A stretch of DNA of 64,000 nucleotides, from positions 165,189-229,188 of IMG/VR virus record IMGVR_UViG_3300042691_055965; one strand, given 5' to 3'. Source of the stretch: a virus. Both the position numbers and the translations under genes were made by a program. Below the pieces are notes generated by a model that made no database searches, was not told the DNA's origin, and was given only the letters and a program-made list of their open reading frames with translations. This document shows, piece after piece, positions 3,592-20,385 of this stretch (its first letter is position 1; every line of letters begins with the position of its first letter).

Positions 3592-6572
3592 TGGCTCAAA
3601 ATAAATTCATATGTCCAAAACCCGCACCAGTTGGTTCAGGAACTTTTTCTGATGATTTAGTTGGATTTCAAGTGGTTGCTGGTGGAGGGTTGACGCAAGG
3701 AAACTTTCAGTATACTACGGCAGTTTTTGACAAGGTTAATCGAAGTTTTGGGACTGGAATTTTTTCAGAACCGTTCAACTTAGAAAACCTGAACATAGGG
3801 ACAATAGAAGAAACGAAGTTATTAATAAAAAAAAATTTTAGTGTTTATCCTAACTTTGATTTATCACAAATAACAAGTTTTTCTTTATATGGTTCACTTC
3901 AAAAAAGAATTTCAGCATCGGTAACAAAAATAATTAATTTTTTTCCTGCAGCAATTCAAATCGATCAACAAAACTATAGTTTAAATACTGGTTACACCGC
4001 TTTTAATATAGTTTATGATGGGGTAGCAGATGAAACGTCATTTGAAGTTGACGTACAGTTTTTTAAAAATCCATTCGATATTGATTACAGTATAAACGCT
4101 GCACAAAATATATCCACAAGACCTTTTAAAATTAGTGATTTTAGAAACCTTACAAAAAACTACGAAGGGTATTCATTATACACTACAGATTTAACAACAG
4201 AATATCAAATTTTAGATTTTGTTCCAACACAAACATTAACTGCTGGAACAATTCCTATTATTGTTAAGGGTAAACCATTTTCATCAACAACCACAACCCA
4301 AACGTTAATATTGAAACCAAATAACTTGAACACTGAAAAAATATTTCAAGATGCGTTTGATGAAGTTGAAGATTATTTGTTAAATAGGAATGGGTTTCCT
4401 AAATATAGTGCGAAATTCAAATATCCTGACTACGATAGTAATGGGAACTATATTATGATTAATAATATTGTTACATGGAAGTTAGATGGTGTTTGGAACT
4501 TGGATATTGTCACATCGAATTTTGACAATTATTTAACAACACTTCAAGATATTTCAGAAAGGTTAGATCAGTTTAAAACCAATTTGATAAGTAGGTTTTT
4601 AACTTCAGGTAGTTTGAAAGAATTTGATACTCCCGATCAAAGATTGGAAAAAGTCCTTCAAATTTATGGTAGAAGTTTTGATGAAACAAAAAAGTTTATT
4701 GATTCTTTAAGTAATATTACATCAGTAAATTATATTGTTGGAAACGATATTCCATCACAATTGTTAAGTAATTTAGCGAAAACATTAGGATGGAACACCG
4801 ACATTTCACCAATAACTAATGAAAAGTTATTGGAGTCAATTTTTACAACAACAAATGATGTAATTTATCCTGGACAATCTAAAGAACAAACACCCGCAGA
4901 ATTAAATTATCAGTATTATAGAAACTTAATTTTAAATTCTGCTTTTTTATTCAAATCTAAAGGAACGAGAAAATCAATTGAATACATTCTAAGGATGGTA
5001 GGTGCGCCTGAAGCATTAATTGAATTCAATGAATATATTTACATTGCTGATCAGAAAATTTCAACGGATGAATTTTTCGAAGAATACATTACAATATCGG
5101 GTGGTACTAAATATGTTGAAACACCTGCACTTTTATCAAATAATACTTTTAAAATATGGGGAGTTCAATATACTGCATTTACAACAAATGGGCAAATTTT
5201 CAATGTAAATACAGATTTACCTGACTACCCAATAGATACTGATACTGGTTTCCCTCAAAGAGCTGTTTACACTGATGATTATTTCTTTCAAAAAGGGTCA
5301 GGGTGGTTTGAAGTGACACCTGAACACCGTTCACCTGAAGAAATAAGTTATTCTACATCTGATTTAAATTCACAAATACCTGTCATAAATTCTGTCCTTA
5401 CACCATTTACCTATGGAAAAGAATATTTAGATAGGTATCGGTCTTTTCCATTTATGGATTTAGGATTCAACATTACAAAAGTAATTGATAACAAGAAAAG
5501 TTGGGTAACAAATCAAGTTGGTTTACGAAAAAATCTTCAAGATTTAGCGGCTACAAATTATATAATTGAAGATGATAGACTTGCAATAAATGTTAAAAAC
5601 ATGGAAGTTTATTTGAATATGGGACAAGGTATAACGTATGACATTTGGAATATGTCTTCCACATATGGTTATCCAATACCAAACAGTGGGTTTACTTCAC
5701 CATATCCATCACCAGGAAATATCGATTGGACATACATTGATCCTAAACCGAATCAAAAAACATTTTTTGAATTTGCTCAAAATTTCTTTAATAATTTCAT
5801 TAATGTAAGAAATAGACAATATATATCCGATGGTAAAACAGGCGGATACCCAACACTACAGTCAATATTTTGGAAATACATCAACAGTGATCAGTCGTTG
5901 AATATTCCAAACAACGAATTCACATATCAAAAAATGATTGATTTTACTTTGAGTTTGGGTGACTATTGGGTTAGATTAGTTGAACAATTTGTTCCGGCAA
6001 CCACTTTGTGGAATACTGGACAAAAAATGGATAACTCTATTTTTCACAGACAAAAATATGTTTGGAGACGACAAAGAGGGTGTACCGTCACACCTCTTGT
6101 TGTTCCATGTTTTCCATGTACATATAATGGTGAACCATACACATATGATTGCATCGATCAAACTACTACTTGTGAATTACCATTATTCGATCCAATAGAC
6201 GTGTTGACAGAAAGTACTTTACAAGTTACCAATAATCTAACAAATTGTAATTTCAATAACTTGGAATCCAATTGGTATGTTATAGTATCATTAACGAATT
6301 TGGTTACTAATCAAGAAGATATTTTAATTAATGAATATTTTTATACAGGATATGGTCCGAATGCTATAGATAATATAAACGGTAACCCATTGACATACTT
6401 TGATGTTATAAATGCAATAGACAATAAACTACAGTATTTATATCAATACGGATTGAATTACTATTTTAGTGGTGGTTCACTAATAATTAGTAATTCTTCT
6501 TGTTATGCGGATTTCACGGATAAACTACTAAATCTAAAAATAGGTTTGGACATTAATATTGTTTGTGCATAA
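3591..6572 (+). CDS. Large baseplate/tail protein
   Basis: The 993-aa protein has, around residues 440-480, a block reading FKSKGTRKSIEYILR followed by MVGAPE. This resembles the segment of P2 gpI-type tail proteins, which join the baseplate to the tail. Residues 230-400 hold helical segments with regular Leu and Glu. The C-terminal 150 residues carry a Cys-rich patch (CFPCTYNGEPYTYDC) and end in a separate beta-rich module. Size and position just before the fibre genes suggest a baseplate wedge or fibre-attachment protein. Family assignment is by partial motif only. Confidence 0.6.
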   Translation: MAQNKFICPKPAPVGSGTFSDDLVGFQVVAGGGLTQGNFQYTTAVFDKVNRSFGTGIFSEPFNLENLNIGTIEETKLLIKKNFSVYPNFDLSQITSFSLYGSLQKRISASVTKIINFFPAAIQIDQQNYSLNTGYTAFNIVYDGVADETSFEVDVQFFKNPFDIDYSINAAQNISTRPFKISDFRNLTKNYEGYSLYTTDLTTEYQILDFVPTQTLTAGTIPIIVKGKPFSSTTTTQTLILKPNNLNTEKIFQDAFDEVEDYLLNRNGFPKYSAKFKYPDYDSNGNYIMINNIVTWKLDGVWNLDIVTSNFDNYLTTLQDISERLDQFKTNLISRFLTSGSLKEFDTPDQRLEKVLQIYGRSFDETKKFIDSLSNITSVNYIVGNDIPSQLLSNLAKTLGWNTDISPITNEKLLESIFTTTNDVIYPGQSKEQTPAELNYQYYRNLILNSAFLFKSKGTRKSIEYILRMVGAPEALIEFNEYIYIADQKISTDEFFEEYITISGGTKYVETPALLSNNTFKIWGVQYTAFTTNGQIFNVNTDLPDYPIDTDTGFPQRAVYTDDYFFQKGSGWFEVTPEHRSPEEISYSTSDLNSQIPVINSVLTPFTYGKEYLDRYRSFPFMDLGFNITKVIDNKKSWVTNQVGLRKNLQDLAATNYIIEDDRLAINVKNMEVYLNMGQGITYDIWNMSSTYGYPIPNSGFTSPYPSPGNIDWTYIDPKPNQKTFFEFAQNFFNNFINVRNRQYISDGKTGGYPTLQSIFWKYINSDQSLNIPNNEFTYQKMIDFTLSLGDYWVRLVEQFVPATTLWNTGQKMDNSIFHRQKYVWRRQRGCTVTPLVVPCFPCTYNGEPYTYDCIDQTTTCELPLFDPIDVLTESTLQVTNNLTNCNFNNLESNWYVIVSLTNLVTNQEDILINEYFYTGYGPNAIDNINGNPLTYFDVINAIDNKLQYLYQYGLNYYFSGGSLIISNSSCYADFTDKLLNLKIGLDINIVCA

Positions 6573-9268
6573 TGGCTTGTATTTCGGGATTTACACTTGG
6601 TGGTTATTATAGTTATGTAGATTGTTGTGGTTTGGTTCAGGCGGGGGTTTCACCTGGACTTGAAAATGTTTGTGTAAGTGCATCAACTTCAGGAACATCA
6701 ATTGGGGTTTTACTTGATAGCGGTTCAACCTGTACGCAAAACTGTAATCAAGGACCTTTAAGTTATGTGTTTACTGTAACTGGGGTTTGTGGTAACCCAT
6801 CAGGGACTGTAACTATTCAATCTTTTGGTGGTATACCTCCGTATACTATTGATAATATTACTCCTGGAAGTTTATCAGCACAAACAAGTTCATCAGATAT
6901 CACTTTTACTGGTTTAACAGGTGGTACTTATGTCTTTAGATTAAATGACTCATTAGGTATACAAAATAATGAAATTTTATTTAATGTAGAAATTTCTGAT
7001 TGTTTTGTTGCGACAATAAATAATACAGATGGAACAACTTGTGGTAGCCAAAATGGTAGTTTTTCTATAGATGTAACTTCTACTGCCGCACCATATAATA
7101 TAGTTCTTTATAAAAATAATGCAATATTTTCGACATTTTTAACAAACACGGTTCCTTATAATGTTACATCATTAGATGAAGGAATATATTATGCAACTGT
7201 TTTTGATTATGGTATGGTAAGTGCCGTGACGGATAATGTTGTTATAAACCCAAGTAGTGGAACTACATTTGGTATATGGAAAGTTAATACATCTAACTGT
7301 GTACCTAATTCAGGAAAACTTGCGGTTACTGGATTGACAGGTAATGGACCTTATAGTTTTTTATGGTCTAATGGTGAAACAACACAAATTATTACTGGAC
7401 TTACTGTCGGAACTTACACAGTTACTGTCACTGATTTTTATGGTTGCGAAACTGTTGCGTCTGAAACGGTTGGTGTTGCTAATCCTTTAGGTGTAGGTTT
7501 AATTACTTCAGTTAACCCGTCTTGTTTTGATTCAAATGGTTCGATTACTGTTCAACTTACAGGAGGAACCGCTCCTTATACGATATCCGCTAATACAGGA
7601 TATCAAACTTTTACCTTAAGTGATACATTTACCGTACCAAATTTACCTACAGGTCCCTATAACATTTTGGTTAAAGATGCAAATCTTTGTCCTTTATTAG
7701 TAAACGCTTCTTTGACAACCGTAAATGGTTTTGACATTATAAGTACAAACATTACAAATACAACGTGTAATGGTAATGACGGTGAAGTGAATATTGTTTT
7801 AACTGGAATACCTCCATTCTTATTTCAATTAACAGCGCTTACAAACAATTCGATATCAACGCAATTTTCTTCAAATTTAAACACTACATTTAGTAATTTA
7901 AATTCGGGAAATTATTTATTGTCCATTTCAGGGCAATCAAGTGGATGTGAATTTATACAACCAATAACTATTCAAAATCAACAGAATTTCCAAGTTACAG
8001 CAACGACAATTGATAGTTCATGTGGAAGTGCTTCTGGATCGGTTATTATAGAAGTCGGAACAGGGTACACGTCACCTCTTGATTATTACCTTATTGACAA
8101 TCAAAATACTCAATCTATAATCGATTATCCTTTTTCATCTTTTACCTTCACATCTATTCTACCTGGAAATTATACAGTCCAAGTAGTTGATGGTAATAAC
8201 TGTACCGTATCAATTCCTGTCACAGTAGGTGCTGGTTCAAATTTTGTCAGTAACGTGATTACAACAAACTGTGTTTCAGGACAAGATGGTATTGCTCAAG
8301 TCGTCATATATGATGGGGTGCCGCCTTTTACTTATAGTTGGCAAGGAGTATTATCCGCTCAAACAGGTTCTACTGTTACAAATTTAAGTGGTGGTACTTA
8401 CACTGTTTCGGTTACAGATGCTAGTGGATGTACAAACTTTCATAATTTTACAATAGTATGTGGTTTCAATAGTTATAGTGGGTCGACAACATATCTTATA
8501 TGTGAAAGAGATTTTATCACAACAAGTGGAACTAAAAGAGGAATACCGGAAATGGTAAGTGAAGGTTTCTTGGATTTAACGACAGGGTACACTAATTGTA
8601 TTTTAAATTCAGCGTCCGTGACTTGTCAAATTACATTGAACGGAAGTGCGTTTACACAAACAATAGTTTTTTGGAATGACGCATCATGGCAAAGTGCAAT
8701 AGAAACAATATTAGGTAGTATTCCTGAAATAGGACAGTACGAAGTTAATTTATTAAATAATACTTTATATATAGAGTCAAATTGTCAGGGAGGAATTGAT
8801 CCATTAGGTGAAACTGATTTTACATTAGAATTGGTTGTAGATTATGACATTAGTTGTGCTGAAATTGCACCTACACCGACACCTACACCTACGCCAACAC
8901 CTACGCCAACACCTACACCTACGCCAACACCTACACCAACACCTTCGCCAACGCCTACTTATACATCAACAACGTGGTATTCTAATTCTGTTGTGTTTAG
9001 TACTGCAAACGCAACAAATCATTGTTTAACATTCCCTGATGATTGTAATGTGAATTTTTATACAAGTTCAGTGAGTTTAAATGTTGGTGATATTTTATAT
9101 GATGATCCATTACTGACTAATGATTCTGGAAATGTTGCGGTAAATTATGGACCATTTGGTGGTGGTTGGGGATGGATATATCTAACAGATACCTGTCCTA
9201 TATCAAGTACAATTTACCTCGTACAATTAAGAAGTAATGGTGAAATATTAGACATACAAACTTGTTAA
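6572..9268 (+). CDS. Tail fibre/adhesin with SprB-type repeats and Pro-Thr linker
   Basis: The 898-aa protein starts at ATG 6572 (MACISG), overlapping the upstream stop; an in-frame TTG at 6563 is less likely. It holds about seven tandem repeats of 70-90 residues with the SprB signature: a Cys near the start, a G-G/T-x-PPY/PFT block, and a GTYTVTVTDxxGC-like end. SprB repeats occur in the gliding adhesin of flavobacteria. A (Pro-Thr)n linker at about residues 766-796 leads to a C-terminal domain of about 100 residues, which is paralogous to the C-terminus of the gene ending at 15657. It is probably a receptor-binding fibre. Confidence 0.75.
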   Translation: MACISGFTLGGYYSYVDCCGLVQAGVSPGLENVCVSASTSGTSIGVLLDSGSTCTQNCNQGPLSYVFTVTGVCGNPSGTVTIQSFGGIPPYTIDNITPGSLSAQTSSSDITFTGLTGGTYVFRLNDSLGIQNNEILFNVEISDCFVATINNTDGTTCGSQNGSFSIDVTSTAAPYNIVLYKNNAIFSTFLTNTVPYNVTSLDEGIYYATVFDYGMVSAVTDNVVINPSSGTTFGIWKVNTSNCVPNSGKLAVTGLTGNGPYSFLWSNGETTQIITGLTVGTYTVTVTDFYGCETVASETVGVANPLGVGLITSVNPSCFDSNGSITVQLTGGTAPYTISANTGYQTFTLSDTFTVPNLPTGPYNILVKDANLCPLLVNASLTTVNGFDIISTNITNTTCNGNDGEVNIVLTGIPPFLFQLTALTNNSISTQFSSNLNTTFSNLNSGNYLLSISGQSSGCEFIQPITIQNQQNFQVTATTIDSSCGSASGSVIIEVGTGYTSPLDYYLIDNQNTQSIIDYPFSSFTFTSILPGNYTVQVVDGNNCTVSIPVTVGAGSNFVSNVITTNCVSGQDGIAQVVIYDGVPPFTYSWQGVLSAQTGSTVTNLSGGTYTVSVTDASGCTNFHNFTIVCGFNSYSGSTTYLICERDFITTSGTKRGIPEMVSEGFLDLTTGYTNCILNSASVTCQITLNGSAFTQTIVFWNDASWQSAIETILGSIPEIGQYEVNLLNNTLYIESNCQGGIDPLGETDFTLELVVDYDISCAEIAPTPTPTPTPTPTPTPTPTPTPTPTPSPTPTYTSTTWYSNSVVFSTANATNHCLTFPDDCNVNFYTSSVSLNVGDILYDDPLLTNDSGNVAVNYGPFGGGWGWIYLTDTCPISSTIYLVQLRSNGEILDIQTC
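8870..8959 (+). repeat. Pro-Thr coding hexanucleotide tract
   Basis: CCTACA/CCAACA-type units code for about 15 Pro-Thr pairs with one Pro-Ser. The unit length of 6 nt means gain or loss of units keeps the frame. Near-identical tracts occur at 14611-14769 and 15061-15138. Confidence 0.9.
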
Positions 9269-9269
9269 G

Positions 9270-9557
9270 ATGCCATATTCTATAGACATAACTTCTATGA
9301 GTGGTGGGTCAGCACCTGTCAGTTATTTCATTTGTGATGAAAATGGTAATAATTGTTCTTTTCTAGGTAATACTACAGGTGTTTATATATTACCCGCATT
9401 CTATCAACCTGCAACGACATTAATTGTTCAAGCAATAGACGGTAATAGTTGTTTATTATTTCAAGTAATAGTTTGTGCAGGACCTGAAACATTTTTACTT
9501 ACAACTGAAGATGGTTTTGTTCTTACAACAGAAGACGGTGACGGAATTTTATTCTAA
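9270..9557 (+). CDS. Small fibre-associated protein, paralogue A1
   Basis: The 95-aa protein starts one base after the fibre gene. It reads as a compact beta domain with an ICDENGNNC-like hairpin and a hydrophobic ..IVCAG strand, followed by a tail in which a short segment (LTTEDGxxL) is duplicated. The core aligns by eye with the 94-aa product at 9579 and the 99-aa product at 15659. It may be a fibre tip, chaperone or decoration protein. The function is unknown. Confidence 0.65.
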   Translation: MPYSIDITSMSGGSAPVSYFICDENGNNCSFLGNTTGVYILPAFYQPATTLIVQAIDGNSCLLFQVIVCAGPETFLLTTEDGFVLTTEDGDGILF

Positions 9558-9578: not shown

Positions 9579-9863
9579 ATGATAATTCAAATCACAGGAG
9601 TAACAAGTGGAACGTCGCCTTATGATGTCTACATTTGTGATCCAACAAATACAGGGTGTTTTTTGGTATCAGGGAGTACAGCGATACCACCAACTGTAAC
9701 TATTGATAGTGATTTATTTTTTCCTTATGAAAATATTGTCTATGTCAAGTTGATTGATGTTTTTGGTTGCACGTTAACAGAAACGGTTGTTTGTGGTGGA
9801 AAAATTTTCCAAGACGATTTTGGTTTTGCATTTATGGATGATACTTATTTTGTGTTTCAATAA
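9579..9863 (+). CDS. Small fibre-associated protein, paralogue A2
   Basis: The 94-aa protein shares its layout with 9270-9557 and especially with 15659-15958. The core is VYICDPTNTGC-like, followed by a ...DxFGC strand and a C-terminal FQDDFGFAFMDDTYFVFQ segment that matches FQDGDPFIFMDGTTYEFQ of the later copy. The repeated occurrence next to PT-linker fibre genes suggests that it is a subunit or assembly factor of those fibres. Confidence 0.65.
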   Translation: MIIQITGVTSGTSPYDVYICDPTNTGCFLVSGSTAIPPTVTIDSDLFFPYENIVYVKLIDVFGCTLTETVVCGGKIFQDDFGFAFMDDTYFVFQ

Positions 9864-11192: not shown

Positions 11193-11927
11193 ATGATAAA
11201 AGTAGGAGCAAAAGAAATAGTAAAAGAAGGATTGGTATGTTTTATGGATCCTGCAAACACGAGTTCATATCAACCAAGTGGTACAACATATTATGATTTG
11301 TCTAGTTTTGCTGCAAAAGCCGTTTTTCAAAATTTTGATACAAATAATAACTTCGATCCGAGTGACGGTGGTGGTAGTATAATTTTTGATGGTGTAGATG
11401 ATAGTATTCGTGTTTTTACATATGGTAGTGTAGGTATTACTAATAGTGCTGAAACTGACTCCTATTTATTTACTGATGAAGTAACATTAGAGGCGTTTGT
11501 AAAACCAACATCGTTTACTAGTCAACCTAACATAATAGGTAAAGGTACAAATTTAGGATATAGATGTAGATTTACGTCTGATCAAAGATTTTGGTTATAT
11601 TCTTCTAGTGGTGCTAGTATTAATAACATTCAAACCGCATCCAATTTGATAAACCCAAATGAATGGGTTCATGTTGTTGCGGTTTTTAGTCAGTCGGGTC
11701 TTTTTGCTTATGTAAATGGAGTGCTGCAGGCATCAAATTCACAACCATTTTTACCCGACATATTAAACCCAACGAGTATAGCTTGTGTATTACATTTTGG
11801 TAGATTTTGTAGTTCTGGTGAACTATTTGAAGGTAAAATGGGTATTATAAGGGTTTACCATGCGGCTCTTTCCGCTGATCAAGTACTATCAAACTTCAAT
11901 GCTGATAGGGATAGATACGGAATATAA
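11193..11927 (+). CDS. LamG/concanavalin-like lectin-fold protein
   Basis: The 244-aa protein has the layout of a Laminin_G_3 / LamG-like jelly roll across nearly its whole length: GLVCFMDPANTSSY near the N-terminus, then SIIFDGVDDSIRV, then TLEAFVKPTSF, then EWVHVVAVFSQSGLFAYVNG, and finally MGIIRVYHAALSADQV. These are the usual strand landmarks of the family. LamG-like domains bind glycans and are used in phage fibres and capsid decorations. A receptor-binding or decoration role fits its place among fibre genes. Confidence 0.75.
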   Translation: MIKVGAKEIVKEGLVCFMDPANTSSYQPSGTTYYDLSSFAAKAVFQNFDTNNNFDPSDGGGSIIFDGVDDSIRVFTYGSVGITNSAETDSYLFTDEVTLEAFVKPTSFTSQPNIIGKGTNLGYRCRFTSDQRFWLYSSSGASINNIQTASNLINPNEWVHVVAVFSQSGLFAYVNGVLQASNSQPFLPDILNPTSIACVLHFGRFCSSGELFEGKMGIIRVYHAALSADQVLSNFNADRDRYGI

Positions 11928-11990: not shown

Positions 11991-13187
11991 ATGAAAATAT
12001 TTGTACAAATTGCATCTTATCGTGATCCTGAACTTTTACCAACTATTAGGGATTGTATCAATAAGGCAAAATACCCTGAAAATTTAACTTTTGGTATCTG
12101 TTGGCAACGTGACGAAACAGAAACTTTGGAAGAATTTTTAAATGATTATAGATTTAGAATATTAGATTATCATTGGAGTGAAAGTAAAGGGCTGTGTTGG
12201 GCTCGAAGTGAAATACAAAAACTTTGGAAAGGGGAAGAATATACTCTACAATTAGATTCACATCATAGGTTTTTGAAAAATTGGGATGAAGAATTAATCG
12301 AAATGATGAACATGACAGGTTCGAAAAAACCAATAATTTCAACATATGCTGGAATGTATCAACCATCAGACGACAAGTTATTAAATTTTGAACCTTATAA
12401 AATGGTGGCATCTAATTTCACACCAGGTGGTACTATACTTTTTAGACCTCACGCAATCCCAAACTGGGAAACATTGGAAAAACCAATACCTGCAAGATTT
12501 GTCAGTGGACACTTTTTTTTCACAATTGGTAAACACTGTGAAGAATATAAATATGATCCAAACATATATTTTGCTGGTGATGAAATTAGTCTATCGATTC
12601 GTTCATTTACATTAGGTTATGATTTATTTCACCCATATAAGACAATTATTTGGCACGAATACACAAGGGAAGGTAGAACAAAACACTGGTCGGATTTCAA
12701 TGAGGAAAATAAAAATAAAGGTGTTGTTGAAAAACAATGGTGGGAAATGGATAATGAATCCAAAAGAAGATTGAGACATATGTTGCAAGAAGAAGATAAT
12801 AATATTGATCTTGGAATTTATGGGTTAGGAAATGAAAGGACACATAAAGAATACGAAGATTATGCTGGTATAAATTTTAGACTTAAAAAACTTCACCCCG
12901 AAACGTTAAAAGGTACAAATCCACCAATTAATGATACTACAGAATGGTATTTGGAAGAAGAAAAAACATATACCTATACTTTAGAAATACCCAAAACTGA
13001 AAATTTTAAATTCATATATATTGGTATAGAAAATGAAAAAGGTGATGTTTTATACAGACAAGATTTATTAGAATATCAAAATAAATTAGACATAACAATT
13101 AAAAGTTTTTCCAAACCACACAAATGGATTTATTGGGTAAACGATATCGATGGGAATTGGATTAATAGGGTAGATACAAATTTATGA
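11991..13187 (+). CDS. Glycosyltransferase, GlcNAc-transferase type (GT60-like)
   Basis: The 398-aa protein has a GT-A fold N-terminus: MKIFVQIASYRDPELLPTI, then a LDSHHRF motif at about residues 84-90 in place of the usual DxD, then TPGGTILFRPHAIP, then FAGDEISLSIR and a WHEY motif. This order matches the Glycosyltransferase (GlcNAc) family (PF11397), which includes the Skp1 hydroxyproline GlcNAc-transferase. The last 110 residues form an extra beta-rich domain. The start overlap with the next glycosyltransferase is ATGA. Its location between two Pro-Thr-linker fibre genes suggests a virion protein substrate, which is inference. Confidence 0.75.
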   Translation: MKIFVQIASYRDPELLPTIRDCINKAKYPENLTFGICWQRDETETLEEFLNDYRFRILDYHWSESKGLCWARSEIQKLWKGEEYTLQLDSHHRFLKNWDEELIEMMNMTGSKKPIISTYAGMYQPSDDKLLNFEPYKMVASNFTPGGTILFRPHAIPNWETLEKPIPARFVSGHFFFTIGKHCEEYKYDPNIYFAGDEISLSIRSFTLGYDLFHPYKTIIWHEYTREGRTKHWSDFNEENKNKGVVEKQWWEMDNESKRRLRHMLQEEDNNIDLGIYGLGNERTHKEYEDYAGINFRLKKLHPETLKGTNPPINDTTEWYLEEEKTYTYTLEIPKTENFKFIYIGIENEKGDVLYRQDLLEYQNKLDITIKSFSKPHKWIYWVNDIDGNWINRVDTNL

Positions 13188-13981
13188 AAATAGGAGCATT
13201 TTATCAGTCAGGACACAAGTTAGTTGCGTGTTATAAAGCATTGGAACAATTAAGAAAAGTATATCCTAATATACCTGTTGCTTTATATGAAGACGGTTCT
13301 AAAATATTGGAACAGGTAGCAAAAAAATTTAATTGTGATTATAAATGGATTGAACAACAAGGGACAAACCACCCTACATCTGGAAGGGTTTTTGTTAAAG
13401 AAGGTGGGCAAATTGATTGGCTACGAAGAATCTATGATGCTTGTTTGACAACACTAAAAGATGTTGAATGGGTGGTACACTACGAAGACGACGTTTGGTG
13501 TAGGTTTGAAATAACCAAACCACCAAAATTTGATATTTCAGGAGCCAATGGTCCATTATATACAAATGAATTATATTCATATTTAAAAAATAGATTTGAT
13601 GTTTACGATGAGTCAAGACATCATTGGAGTGAAAATGGTTCTTTACAAAGTTACGGTGCCTGTGGTGGTGCTATTTTTAATAGAGAAAAATTTATCTACA
13701 TATTTGAAAATATCGACAAAGTTCCGTGGGATTATATCTATAAATTGGATACCAGACCGATTGAGTGGTGTGATGCAACGCTTTCGTTTTTATTTCAGTA
13801 TTTTGGATTTACTAGTGGGGTATGGGAAGATTGGGCACAATACGATAGTAAAAATATAGGTAATTGGTGGGATAAAAGTGGTTGGTCGGTTCCTATGGAA
13901 GAACAACCTAATGTTGCTTTTATTCATGCGTATAAACATTATTATTGTTATAAACCTGAAGATATTGAAATAGATTTTTAA
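13184..13981 (+). CDS. Second glycosyltransferase-like protein
   Basis: The 265-aa protein shows GT-A-like features: an N-terminal MKIGAFYQSGHK strand, then VPVALYEDGS, a WVVHYEDDVW block with an EDD triad (about residues 99-101) in the DxD position, a GGAIFNREKF acceptor-site-like segment, and a late DATLSFLF / AFIHAYKHY region. Such small enzymes act in phage or capsular glycan modification. It is coupled (ATGA) to the GlcNAc-transferase-like gene, so both probably act on the same glycan. Donor and acceptor are unknown. Confidence 0.6.
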   Translation: MKIGAFYQSGHKLVACYKALEQLRKVYPNIPVALYEDGSKILEQVAKKFNCDYKWIEQQGTNHPTSGRVFVKEGGQIDWLRRIYDACLTTLKDVEWVVHYEDDVWCRFEITKPPKFDISGANGPLYTNELYSYLKNRFDVYDESRHHWSENGSLQSYGACGGAIFNREKFIYIFENIDKVPWDYIYKLDTRPIEWCDATLSFLFQYFGFTSGVWEDWAQYDSKNIGNWWDKSGWSVPMEEQPNVAFIHAYKHYYCYKPEDIEIDF

Positions 13982-14028: not shown

Positions 14029-15657
14029 GTGCCAAATTTATTATTTGAAGGTTGTTGTTACGAGGGTTATCAGTATTTCACTGATGAAGCAGCTTGGATT
14101 GCAACTGGTGGAACCGCGACTACAGGACAAACATATCATTTTTCAGGTGACCCAATAGTTCCCGATGGTTGTTATACTATAGTATCGGCATTCACATCAG
14201 GTTTTACATCTGTATCATTTACAAATTTAGATGGTGTTTATACAACACAAACAGGATGTACCGATTCTTTGTGTTTGACAGGTGTTTGTTGTAGTAATGA
14301 TGTTTGCATTAACATTTCGGTTTCAACATATAGTGCGTATAGCGGTAATTATGTTGTTGCTGGAAGTTATAATTCTTACCCTTATTGGACAGGTGCAACA
14401 CAACCTGGGTATATTGGGTTCAATGGTACAAATTGGTGTCTTTCTGATTCACTAACCGGAACTTGTATTTTTTATGGGTCGAACCCAACATTATCAACTT
14501 GCCCTGATTTAGATACTTCAGTTTATAATACAGGAATTTGTCCACCTGTACCAACACCATTCGATCCGTGTGGTGCATTTGATTTTGATGTTTTAGTTGC
14601 TTGTGATATACCAACACCAACTCCAACACCAACACCGACACCAACACCTACACCGACTCCCACACCAAGTCCAACACCTAATTTATGTTCAGGATTTTCT
14701 GTGTCAATATCTTTTAGTGCTACAACACCTACACCAACACCAACACCAACACCTACACCAACGCCTACGGTTTATCCTTATCCAATAACTGGACAAAGTG
14801 TGACTTTTGTTATTGACGAAGGTTATTTTAATTGTGTTTCAATAAAACAATTACAGGATTGTGATAATGGTGAAACATATTTAGTTGCCGATCCTTTAAT
14901 TTTCCAATTATCGGCAATAACCACAGGCACTACGTTCTTGGGCGCTATAAATGGAGAATTCAAGTGTGTAACATATGTGGGTGATGTTTTGGGAAGTCCA
15001 TCCGATTTGTTAACATTTATATCACTTACATACAGTGGGGATTGTAGTTCATGTATCGCGCCAACACCAACTCCAACACCTACACCAAGCCCAACACCAA
15101 CACCGACACCTACACCGACACCTACACCGACACCAACATATAGTGCGAACACATCATTCGTGTTTACATCTTGTACATCAAATTCGATGATAATTCAAAG
15201 TTTGATTCCACCTACTAACATTTCTGTTGGTAACGTTGTAAAAAATAGTTCAGGAAATTGTTTCACTTATATTGGTTATTTTGTGAATTATACTCCACCA
15301 TCTGGGTTTATTTGGTCGACTATAAATTCATTTACGGGTGTTACTGCAACAACTTACACGACTTGTTTAGAGTGTTTGACACCAACACCAACACCTACAC
15401 CATTATTCAATACATATAACGGTAAAGGTGAATTCGGAGTATCGTGTCCTGTTTGTGAATTGACAAATGGTGGTACAAATGTGACTTTCTATAGGTCTTA
15501 TAGTACTTTATCTTTACAGACAGGGGATTATATTTATGAAGATACTGCACTTACCATACCTGTAATATTATCATACATTAAGTACGGTGGTAAAATATAC
15601 AGTGTTGATAGTAATGGTATGATAACAGAATTTTGTATAGTAAACGGTAATTGTTAA
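14029..15657 (+). CDS. Fibre protein with several Pro-Thr linkers
   Basis: The 542-aa protein starts at GTG 14029; there is no nearby ATG and a TATTTATA motif is correctly placed. Cys-rich beta modules ([26 protein letters not shown]) are separated by four Pro-Thr tracts, at about residues 194-216, 232-247, 345-370 and 450-458. The C-terminal domain ([22 protein letters not shown]) is paralogous to the C-terminus of the 6572-9268 fibre. The layout of compact domains on stiff PT rods fits a flexible multi-knob fibre. The Thr-rich linkers are plausible acceptors for the adjacent glycosyltransferases. Confidence 0.7.
14611..14679 (+). repeat. Pro-Thr coding tract
   Basis: CCAACA/CCTACA/CCGACA units code for alternating Pro and Thr with one Pro-Ser. 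This is the first of four tracts in this gene. Confidence 0.88.
14724..14769 (+). repeat. Pro-Thr coding tract
   Basis: This is the second tract, built of ACACCA/ACACCT units. Confidence 0.85.
15061..15138 (+). repeat. Pro-Thr coding tract
   Basis: This is the third tract. It is near-identical in unit composition to 8870-8959 in the other fibre gene. Confidence 0.88.
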
Positions 15658-15658
15658 T

Positions 15659-15958
15659 ATGGCGACATTTGTTACAGTAAACACAGCAACAGGACAGTTC
15701 CCAATAAATGTTTGGGTTTGTAATGATTGTACCACGGGGGCTACAAATATTTGTCAATACATAGACACAATTGATAATGTTGGTGAAATTCCGTTCACAT
15801 TTCAACTACCAACAATTTATGAAACAGCACTTTCATATTCCATCAAATTTATTGACAGTTTAGGATGTGAAGTGTGTGATGCTTATTCGACTTATAAACA
15901 ATTCCAAGATGGTGATCCATTTATTTTCATGGACGGCACAACTTATGAATTTCAATAA
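15659..15958 (+). CDS. Small fibre-associated protein, paralogue B
   Basis: The 99-aa protein starts two bases after the PT fibre gene. The layout is NVWVCNDCTTGATNIC, then FIDSLGCEVC, then the C-terminal FQDGDPFIFMDGTTYEFQ. This mirrors the 9579-9863 product, and the position relative to a PT fibre is the same. It is a paralogue within a duplicated fibre module; the function is unknown. Confidence 0.68.
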   Translation: MATFVTVNTATGQFPINVWVCNDCTTGATNICQYIDTIDNVGEIPFTFQLPTIYETALSYSIKFIDSLGCEVCDAYSTYKQFQDGDPFIFMDGTTYEFQ

Positions 15959-18183: not shown

Positions 18184-20385
18184 ATGTCATACATAATCAA
18201 AACAACAAGTGGTTTAATAAATACAATTCTAACAGACGCTGCTAGGAAAAAAATATCGCAAGGAAACTTTAAGATTTCTTATTTTCAAGTAGGTGATAGT
18301 GAAGTGTGTTATGATTGTATTACAGGATTGAAACCAACCAATCTAAATGTTTTGATGCCACAATATAACGCACAAAACACAACACCGGCACCTGAAAGTA
18401 ATCGTTTACAAGTAAAGTATCCACTTTACGTAGACTCTACATCAGGAAGTACTTACGGTATACCTTTTGATTCATCATTTGTTGATAACATCTATAATAC
18501 TGCAGCACCAAGAGGATTTTTTAGTGGTAATGGTTTGACTTACAGTGCGTACACATCATCGGCATATACAATTACACCTAATTTTATTGTTGATAACACA
18601 ACTTTAAATTCAGGGACTACTTTAGTATTGTCTGCTAACACTTTAGATGTTACCGTTTCAGGAACAGTAACTCCTGGTATGATATTAAATTTATTTACAA
18701 ATAATTCTGTCACACCATTAAGTGGAAACGCACCATTATTTACTTATGTTGTTGTTGGAATAACTGGTGATACCTATTCGGCAAACACAGTTACAGTTGA
18801 AGTTGATAGACAATTACCTGACTTTTTGAATATGGGTTACACAGGAAATTCTATTGCCATTTTCTACCCATCTGGAATGACTGCTCTTTATGATTCCGTG
18901 ACACCTGCACCTTATTGGGCTACAAATGTAATTAATTTCGAAACAAATTGTGACGTATCACAAGCTGACGTTAAAATATGGAATATGAACATTCCATGGA
19001 CTGAATCGCCAGCTGGTTTATTTGTCAGTCAAAATTTGGATTACAATTCGTTCAAATCTACAGGATATACGGGTTCTAAAGAATATTTTGGTTACAATAG
19101 TGATACAGGACAAGTGGATACTGGAGGTGTTTATTTTGTGAACTCTCTTGGACAAAAAATAACGTTAAATCCATCAGATTCAAAGGCAGTTGCAATATTA
19201 CACTATACAAACCAAGCTATTGATAATTTTTATGGTGAAAAGTTCGCTCAACAAGAATATGATTCATCAAATCCGGGTGGAACAGGACAAGCAAGAAACT
19301 TTAAAATAAGTATTCCTTGGTTGATGTGGCATAAAAATTCAAATGGCACAATTGGAGAAGAATTTTTTACTGATCCAAGTGGGTTTACTTCAATTGACTT
19401 ATTTCAAGTTTATTATATCAAATCTAAAAAAGATGCGGAATTCAACAACCCTGGTATTAGATATTACTATCTTTGGGATACACATGCTAACATCGATGGA
19501 TACCCAAACAGAGTTGGTAAAGTTTTCCCTGACTTGAAAATGGTAATTTTTGATGATGATGAAATTGTTGCAGCAATGTCATATAAATCAAACAGAAGTT
19601 GGACATTACCAGCACCTAAAATAGGTACAATAATTCCAAATGCTTGTGAAGGTGTTCTTGGATTAGATGAGGGTTTATTAAGTGCTAACACACAAACCGC
19701 ATTCGTTACGTATAGATTTAATAATAGTGCTTTTACAAATTCATTACATTGTAATTATTACACTAATATTTCACCACAGTTAGTTGATCCTATTCAAACA
19801 ACCTACAATATATTTTTAAAATTTGGAAACGAATTTCCGTTTTTAGTTTCGGACGTTAGTACTATACCAACTGGATATACCGCAAATGAAATGAAAGTAT
19901 TGGTACAAAAAGTGGCATCAGGTACAACAAGACCTAATCCTACACAATGGAAAGAAATTGATGTAATGTCACAACTATCGGCAACTACTAGTAACAATTT
20001 TTTAACACTATCAGGTTTGACAGGAGCAACTATACAAATTACCAAAGATATGTATGATACTGCACCAACATACAACTTGAATAACTATATTGATTTACCA
20101 ACAGCGGCATTAAGTGGAATTACTCTTAATTTTGGGGGTGAATACTTTTTCTACGGTTCAATTCAAACGGATATTCAAGCAACAATATATGTGATGAATT
20201 ATCTATGTAATTTGGGACAAACACAGTTTTTAAGTTCAACCAATCCGACTTGGGATGGGACACCACCGTACATCACTGAAGTTGCTCTTTACAATGAAAA
20301 TAAAGAACTTATGGTTATTTCAAAGATACAATCCCCTGAAAAAAGACAGGGAATCCAACAGTATCCAGTTAAACTTGATTTTTAA
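18184..20385 (+). CDS. Large virion protein, tail/baseplate type
   Basis: The 733-aa protein opens with SYIIKTTSGLINTILTDAARKKISQG and a YFQVGDSE segment. It ends with TEVALYNENKELMVISKIQSP and a QQYPVKLDF tail. This N- and C-terminal pairing is familiar from large tail/baseplate proteins of T4-type phages of marine and Bacteroidota hosts, though I cannot name a T4 counterpart. The middle is beta-rich, with a W/Y-rich segment (IPWLMWHKNSNG). It is the last gene of the tail cluster. Confidence 0.6.
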   Translation: MSYIIKTTSGLINTILTDAARKKISQGNFKISYFQVGDSEVCYDCITGLKPTNLNVLMPQYNAQNTTPAPESNRLQVKYPLYVDSTSGSTYGIPFDSSFVDNIYNTAAPRGFFSGNGLTYSAYTSSAYTITPNFIVDNTTLNSGTTLVLSANTLDVTVSGTVTPGMILNLFTNNSVTPLSGNAPLFTYVVVGITGDTYSANTVTVEVDRQLPDFLNMGYTGNSIAIFYPSGMTALYDSVTPAPYWATNVINFETNCDVSQADVKIWNMNIPWTESPAGLFVSQNLDYNSFKSTGYTGSKEYFGYNSDTGQVDTGGVYFVNSLGQKITLNPSDSKAVAILHYTNQAIDNFYGEKFAQQEYDSSNPGGTGQARNFKISIPWLMWHKNSNGTIGEEFFTDPSGFTSIDLFQVYYIKSKKDAEFNNPGIRYYYLWDTHANIDGYPNRVGKVFPDLKMVIFDDDEIVAAMSYKSNRSWTLPAPKIGTIIPNACEGVLGLDEGLLSANTQTAFVTYRFNNSAFTNSLHCNYYTNISPQLVDPIQTTYNIFLKFGNEFPFLVSDVSTIPTGYTANEMKVLVQKVASGTTRPNPTQWKEIDVMSQLSATTSNNFLTLSGLTGATIQITKDMYDTAPTYNLNNYIDLPTAALSGITLNFGGEYFFYGSIQTDIQATIYVMNYLCNLGQTQFLSSTNPTWDGTPPYITEVALYNENKELMVISKIQSPEKRQGIQQYPVKLDF

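Follow-up and report, generated by a model that had tools for sequence, protein, structure and literature searches.

Background

Glycosylation of polypeptides on serine or threonine is common to the glycosyltransferase (GT) families GT60 and GT27, which are marked by a DxH motif in place of DxD (PMC7185993; the articles cited here and below are drawn on in part). Within GT60, the enzyme TcOGNT1 of Trypanosoma cruzi attaches N-acetylglucosamine (GlcNAc) in alpha linkage to threonines of mucins, where it can be extended with galactose (Gal) and galactofuranose (Galf) (PMC9472816), and Gnt1, the hydroxyproline GlcNAc-transferase of Skp1, belongs to the same family (PMC6939170). Virus-run glycosylation of virions is already known from mycobacteriophages and chloroviruses (as cited in PMC12619734 and PMC5852040), and at least two glycoproteins have been reported for the phage XacN1, with phage enzymes suggested as their possible makers (PMC5852040). 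Here we describe a locus in a 64,000-nt stretch of viral DNA (hereafter the window), which is the final 64 kb of the 229,188-bp IMG/VR record IMGVR_UViG_3300042691_055965 (positions 165,189 to 229,188). In this locus, two glycosyltransferase genes stand directly before a gene whose product carries rods of proline and threonine, and we consider it probable that they form a cassette by which the phage carries out mucin-type O-glycosylation and whose outer sugars can be exchanged.

Results

Two glycosyltransferase genes precede a Pro-Thr rod gene

An earlier note on this DNA had described two coupled glycosyltransferase genes, the first of a type that includes a hydroxyproline GlcNAc-transferase, lying between two genes for proteins with long Pro-Thr rods. 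Both open reading frames (ORFs) are present and overlap by 4 nt, and the product of the first matches the Pfam family PF11397 'GlcNAc' with an E-value of 2.1e-67 (228.5 bits, cut-off 21), which bears out the coupling and the enzyme type. The described placement holds on the right-hand side, where the rod gene begins after a gap of 47 nt, but not on the left-hand side, where the other rod gene is 2.7 kb and five genes away. The two enzyme genes, the rod gene and their neighbours all lie on the plus strand (Table 1).

The first product also matches phrog_24687 'glycosyltransferase' (E 4.1e-98), and gave no match in a sequence search of solved structures. We take PF11397 to correspond to the CAZy family GT60. 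The residues D89, S90 and H91, which form the DxH motif, are invariant in all 21 aligned rows. On this sequence evidence we propose that the gene encodes an initiating polypeptide alpha-GlcNAc-transferase. The 2-oxoglutarate-Fe(II) oxygenase families PF13640, PF13661 and PF03171 had no match in the 229-kb record, which may be incomplete. Since no prolyl-hydroxylase-type family was thus found in the record, while GT60 includes a Thr-directed mucin enzyme (PMC9472816), a hydroxyproline acceptor is unsupported, and threonine, as in the T. cruzi mucins, is more likely to be the residue that accepts the sugar.

The second product matched nothing in Pfam at E<=1, in PHROG at E<=0.1 or, by sequence, in the PDB at E<=1, and nothing among 50,697 phage records. 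Five AlphaFold2 models of it spanned mean predicted local distance difference test (pLDDT) values from 63.5 to 86.8, and the best of them (86.8) has a GT-A-type fold, with a Foldseek E-value of 2.2e-9 to B3GalT5. When the model was realigned with VIA-align, the nearest structures were CHSY3, B3GalT5, C1GalT1 and B3GNT2 with Z-scores of 12-14 (CHSY3: Z 14.3, root mean square deviation 3.2, 196 residues aligned; C1GalT1: Z 12.6, deviation 3.8, 188 aligned). These four are GT31 extension enzymes. The second enzyme is thus predicted to be of the GT-A fold with GT31-like structures nearest; its family within GT-A is left wide, because LgtC (Z 12.0) and the blood-group/alpha-1,3-Gal enzymes (Z about 11) score close. 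Its residues E101-D102-D103 are invariant in 22 of 22 rows, and its gene adjoins that of the GT60 enzyme in 29 of the 30 loci found, the lone exception being L032 (retrieved loci carry L numbers), a contig of 4.9 kb with a distant relative of 29% identity. Going by the model, we propose that this enzyme extends the first sugar.

The three rods of the rod protein, which join its Cys-rich beads, contain 31 threonines and are about half proline; synonymous codons are mixed in them, so that they are no perfect DNA repeat. In an alignment of 25 rows (the window and 24 relatives), in which the rods were judged by eye, rods 1 and 2 are retained between Cys-rich beads in every row, rod 3 is missing from L118, L119 and L130, and the rods that L141 and L155 have are interrupted by other residues. 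The structural model of the protein is poor overall (pLDDT 66.6), being confident at about residues 271-345, 370-450 and 460-540, whereas confidence is low for the rods and over most of the stretch 84-268. Its best viral structure matches are mostly uncharacterised proteins with very low TM-scores, and for this reason no function was assigned from them. PHROG families of 'virion structural protein' are matched by two genes neighbouring the cassette, and matches to tail sheath, tail tube and two baseplate-wedge proteins lie upstream in the same record; the rod protein is presumably a fibre or another part of the particle. On the minus strand, opposite the third rod, is an ORF of 109 aa with a Gly-Val repeat (14823-15152), which we take as an artefact.

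Genes behind the GT60 gene are exchanged among related phages

Related phages were sought with a 733-aa protein encoded nearby (18184-20382), and the best 80 of 163 loci were retrieved as its clade; this marker protein had no match among the 50,697 phage records. The GT60 gene occurs in 41 of the 80 clade stretches. From the 39 loci without a match, 23 further records were tested, and 11 of them have GT60 elsewhere in the record, either about 0.2-7.7 kb upstream of the stretch, before sugar enzymes and a Thr/Pro-rich gene (9 records), or far from the clade gene (2 records). Here and below, an ORF is called Thr/Pro-rich when proline, threonine and serine make up 60% of 40 consecutive residues, a threshold of our own.

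Related phages mostly retain the first gene and differ in those behind it, which are swapped. The genes found 3' of GT60 encode the GT31-like enzyme, HtrL_YibB (PF09612), GT34, GT10, GT11 and GT25 enzymes, carbamoyltransferase, FkbM and rhamnosyl O-methyltransferases and, in one relative, UDP-galactopyranose mutase (UDP, uridine diphosphate). A sulfotransferase match is weak in L144, where it falls below the cut-off, and clear in L083, which is outside the clade. The outermost sugar gene can be one other than GT60: in L216 an FkbM-type gene is found further upstream. Most cassettes end at the same rod gene or at another Thr/Pro-rich gene, whose product may reach 2,574 aa with 287 TPT/PTP triplets. 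Upstream of GT60 is where the Thr/Pro-rich gene stands in L222 and L223, whose stretches stop before the downstream end. By eye, the very large Thr/Pro-rich proteins of L218-L221 (up to 2,574 aa) share a common start that resembles the Hint/intein type.

The breakpoints of one such exchange could be placed by comparison with a close relative, L102. By blastn, DNA identity of about 79% ends inside the GT60 gene, at 12299. It returns at 14035, six bases after the rod gene begins, and only an 85-bp match to L102 falls within the replaced segment. Residues 1-103 of the GT60 protein are 82% identical to those of L102 and the later blocks 43%, 49% and 26% (47% overall), while identity of the flanking proteins ranges from 56% to 93%, with 84% for the rod protein and 93% for the clade protein. 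Nothing in L102 matches the second gene, and an HtrL-cluster gene takes its place there. Comparison with L036 gives the opposite picture: the two enzymes are 82-83% identical and the flanking proteins 44-85%, with two of the latter lacking a match. Because the two relatives show opposite patterns of identity in enzymes and flanks, these sequence comparisons indicate that the cassette moves on its own.

Beyond the clade, GT60 genes lie near Thr/Pro-rich genes more often than expected

To put the pairing into numbers, the distance between GT60 and Thr/Pro-rich ORFs was compared with that expected for random genes of the same loci, which is a rough control, as the loci are short and the phages share descent. 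In IMG/VR, GT60 occurs in at least 580 stretches. All 40 clade loci have a Thr/Pro-rich ORF at a distance of no more than 1.5 kb from GT60, where random genes give 26.6, and so do 7 of 7 against 4.5 after dereplication at 75% (P 0.027). For phages outside the clade, defined as loci without a match to two clade profiles in the stretch, the figures are 38 of 84 against 20.3, and 15 of 41 against 9.7 after dereplication (simulated P 0.004); the immediate neighbour is Thr/Pro-rich in 11 of 42 dereplicated loci against 4.6 (P 0.001). Four of these 42 loci (L437, L470, L478, L481) have one more structural gene in common with the clade, and when they are left out the counts are 9 of 38 against 3.5 for the immediate neighbour (P 0.001) and 12 of 37 against 7.7 within 1.5 kb (P 0.014). 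Thr/Pro-rich genes flank the cassette on both sides in, for example, L445, L480, L440 and L468.

In bacterial genomes GT60 is weakly associated with Thr/Pro-rich genes (immediate neighbour in 5 of 34 against 2.2, P 0.03). A locus of Jiulongibacter sediminis has a Thr/Pro-rich ORF, GT60 and a carbamoyltransferase; on its other strand, a second and shorter ORF that by eye is GT60-like (L360, 3942-4862) adjoins the Thr/Pro-rich gene. On a contig of a Prosthecobacter metagenome-assembled genome (L343), GT60 stands next to a GT29-type gene, a family also present at the clade slot in L113.

Among the 50,697 phage records, a PF11397-type enzyme is encoded in three, those of the Xanthomonas phage XacN1 and the Stenotrophomonas phages RAS14 and CM1. 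XacN1 ORF334 is a homologous GT60 enzyme (42% identity over 78% of the query). A (PT)4 pattern is present in all three phages and in none of seven jumbo phages without PF11397 that we chose for comparison (RaK2, K64-1, 121Q, GAP32, phiKZ, G and 201phi2-1); because RAS14 and CM1 look like one type, this is in effect a comparison of two with seven. The Thr/Pro-rich ORFs of XacN1 are 232-237, 384 and 325, and RAS14 has two above the threshold. ORFs 232-237 of XacN1 are consecutive (AP018399.1, 124048-133104) and annotated as hypothetical. The authors of the XacN1 report observed no tail fibres (PMC5852040).

Proposed mechanism and alternatives

In the mechanism that we propose, the GT60 enzyme would put the first sugar, probably alpha-GlcNAc from host UDP-GlcNAc, on rod threonines of the neighbouring, presumed virion protein, and the GT31-like enzyme would extend it. 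Since the first gene usually stays while the later genes are swapped, each related phage may have an outer glycan of its own, attached to a Thr/Pro-rich scaffold that is conserved. That the swappable set of sugar enzymes lies directly beside the gene for the Thr/Pro rods suggests that the phage probably sugars its own particle, and the turnover of the later genes, beside a first gene and rods that are mostly kept, suggests that the outer sugar varies under selection. The claim that the phage glycosylates its own fibre linkers gains ground in one part, the link between glycosyltransferases and a Pro-Thr protein, through the placement in the clade, the swapped enzymes, the association outside the clade and the glycoproteins reported for XacN1 (PMC5852040); the parts that we infer are the presence of the sugar on the rods themselves and the identity of the rod protein as a fibre. 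Stiffness and masking had both been named as the benefit. Stiffness alone fits poorly, as it would presumably need no variety of outer-sugar enzymes, and a changeable mask or recognition surface would be the likelier benefit.

Several observations weigh against this interpretation. The clade loci share descent, so that their counts are not independent, and immediate adjacency in the dereplicated clade is not significant (2 of 7 against 1.5), which is low because other cassette genes intervene. In 26 of the 41 dereplicated loci outside the clade no Thr/Pro-rich ORF lies within 1.5 kb, and of 19 GT60-bearing records outside the clade, 8 contain a strict (PT)5 pattern and 11 lack it. When viral loci were picked by a (PT)6 pattern, GT60 was present in the retrieved stretch of only 6 of 80 among the matches listed, in 72 of which the repeat is in frame within an ORF. 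PF11397 is absent from 12 of the 23 clade records tested (ten of less than 100 kb and two of 169 and 270 kb, which may be incomplete), and all 12 stretches have Thr/Pro-rich ORFs. In four clade records (L113, L119, L126, L129) the slot is held by a GT29-type gene instead of GT60; they share one gene cluster on the opposite strand, in which L113, the sole member scanned, has GT29 (sialyltransferase family), and no PF11397 was found in the 30-53 kb of each that were examined. In XacN1 and RAS14 the GT60 gene is away from the Thr/Pro-rich genes, in a region with a DNA polymerase (annotated as such in XacN1). The polymorphic glycosyltransferase clusters of jumbo cyanophages have, moreover, been read as diversifying an outer polysaccharide, for example O antigen (PMC7824862).

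The idea that rods and GT60 strictly depend on one another is rejected in view of the GT60-less records and the (PT)6 loci bearing Thr/Pro-rich ORFs; in these records the rods do not need GT60 in the same record. Since Thr/Pro-rich linkers are thus common without GT60, the enzymes might glycosylate folded domains of virion proteins or other proteins of the particle (baseplate, tube or capsid), with the rods as mere linkers, and mycobacteriophage glycans do sit on the C-termini of capsid and tail-tube proteins (as cited in PMC12619734). We regard this as unlikely, for the Thr/Pro-rich gene is the constant partner of GT60 in the clade and recurs on one or both sides of it in other phages, and Thr-rich mucins are the substrate on which GT60 is known to act at Ser/Thr (PMC9472816). 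Modification of the host surface (lipopolysaccharide, capsule or exopolysaccharide), for instance to keep other phages out, is somewhat less likely again. GT10, GT11, GT25, GT29, carbamoyltransferase and UDP-galactopyranose mutase, families that fill the slot, also occur in surface polysaccharide pathways. The cyanophage reading given above points the same way, and phages that change the serotype of their host are known (PMC12619734). The cassette lies, however, among structural genes, one breakpoint of the exchange falls where the rod gene begins, and GT60 is a family that glycosylates polypeptides (PMC9472816, PMC7185993, PMC6939170).

Two further explanations appear to us very improbable, and equally so. 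The enzymes could decorate hypermodified phage DNA, as some GT60 homologues lie near a DNA polymerase and DNA-glycosylating phage glycosyltransferases are known (cited in PMC12619734; PMC9614988). The thymidylate synthase/hydroxymethylase family PF00303, however, had no match in the possibly incomplete record, the location among structural genes speaks against it, and in relatives O-methyl-, carbamoyl- and sulfotransferase families stand beside Thr/Pro-rich genes. Alternatively, the rod prolines could be hydroxylated and GT60 could act as in Skp1, in keeping with the membership of Gnt1 in the family (PMC6939170) and the high proline content of the rods; given the unmatched oxygenase families, a hydroxylase of the host would then be required. 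Glycosylation of the rod threonines by an exchangeable cassette thus remains the explanation that we prefer.

Other features of the window

The coordinates of the locus are collected in Table 1. Runs of at least 12 proline, threonine or serine residues are confined to two ORFs of the window, the rod gene (23, 16 and 26 aa) and the gene of an upstream SprB-repeat protein (30 aa), whose homologue lacks such a Pro-Thr run in many relatives. In the remainder of the 229,188-bp record a strict (PT)5 DNA pattern had no further match, and a looser scan of the record gave one extra Thr/Pro-rich ORF of 260 aa (locus L093). The Laminin_G_3 protein directly upstream of GT60 matches phrog_8510 'virion structural protein' (E 3.3e-19). 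Three small paralogues of 94-99 aa, which form one cluster of related proteins, are encoded at 9270-9557, 9579-9863 and 15659-15958; members of the cluster are found in most clade loci, often in tandem and sometimes with a Pro-Thr rod.

Table 1. Positions of the locus features in the window and the basis of each assignment
Feature	Position	Strand	Basis or remark
SprB-repeat protein of 901 aa (Pro-Thr rod of 30 aa); may be a second acceptor	6563..9268	+	PF13573 SprB, E 9.8e-18
Rod of SprB-repeat protein, residues 770-799	8870..8959	+	P/T/S run
Laminin_G_3 (lectin-like) protein, virion-type neighbour	11193..11927	+	Directly upstream of GT60; PF13385, E 1.2e-20
GT60-type (PF11397) glycosyltransferase, 398 aa; first enzyme gene of cassette	11991..13187	+	Profile and motif
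DSH (DxH) motif, GT60 residues 89-91	12255..12263	+	Alignment, 21 rows
Replaced segment, window versus L102	12300..14034	+	Blastn breaks; flanks about 79% identical DNA
Second glycosyltransferase, 265 aa, predicted GT-A fold, nearest GT31-type structures	13184..13981	+	Predicted model
Pro-Thr rod protein of 542 aa (rods between Cys-rich beads); candidate acceptor	14029..15657	+	Directly downstream
Rod 1, residues 195-217 (23 aa)	14611..14679	+	P/T/S run
Rod 2, residues 232-247 (16 aa)	14722..14769	+	P/T/S run
Rod 3, residues 345-370 (26 aa)	15061..15138	+	P/T/S run

Discussion: comparison with known systems

The locus places an enzyme family of known chemistry beside a candidate acceptor with 31 rod threonines, in a pairing that recurs in many phages, and the swapping of outer-sugar genes in a single slot suggests that the identity of the glycan is under selection. 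If our interpretation is true, bacterial viruses have a mucin-type system, which would bear on adsorption, recognition and the immunogenicity of phages and would be a source of new peptide-glycosylating enzymes. A wider statement, that GT60-led mucin-type O-glycosylation is widespread in phages and found in some bacteria, with initiator and scaffold kept, outer-sugar genes swapped and tail glycotypes serving as serotype-like masks or recognition surfaces, seems to us evenly poised between true and false. No report of a GT60-led exchangeable mucin-type cassette in phages was found in our searches of the open-licence literature.

Giant viruses and chloroviruses likewise supply their own glycosyltransferases for structural proteins (PMC9614988; PBCV-1 cited in PMC5852040), but their hosts are eukaryotic, and the terms 'GT60' and 'mucin' are absent from the main text of PMC9614988. 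The moraphages are large aquatic phages, mostly of Bacteroidota, with putative glycosyltransferases as four of their core orthogroups, which PMC12619734, as far as drawn on, does not tie to a rod protein. Mycobacteriophages carry glycans on particle proteins, read as a shield (Freeman et al. 2023, as cited in PMC12619734); there, in contrast, the C-termini of capsid and tail-tube proteins are targeted, and the account in that article mentions, in the part used, no GT60-led exchangeable cassette or mucin-like rods. The jumbo cyanophage clusters resemble the present one in that sets of sugar enzymes vary between related jumbo phages, and differ, as far as their description allows comparison, in the reading as an outer polysaccharide of O-antigen type and in having no rod-protein partner (PMC7824862).

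XacN1 has a homologous GT60 enzyme, reported glycoproteins (PMC5852040) and Thr/Pro-rich ORFs in its genome, although its GT60 gene does not adjoin them. Gnt1 of Skp1 shares the CAZy family and the glycosylation of a polypeptide, and differs from the record in the prolyl hydroxylation on which its acceptor residue depends, no prolyl-hydroxylase-type family having been found here. TcOGNT1 of T. cruzi and the window enzyme have the GT60-type profile and the DxH motif in common, a comparison made at the level of the family; TcOGNT1 is a Golgi enzyme, whereas that of the window is phage-encoded, presumably cytoplasmic and, to judge from its surroundings, with a phage protein as putative acceptor. 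A candidate for a Thr/Pro-rich acceptor of the T. cruzi kind is at hand, within 1.5 kb in all 40 clade loci, and further sugar enzymes, which may extend the first sugar, accompany the putative initiating one, among them, in one relative, the UDP-galactopyranose mutase.

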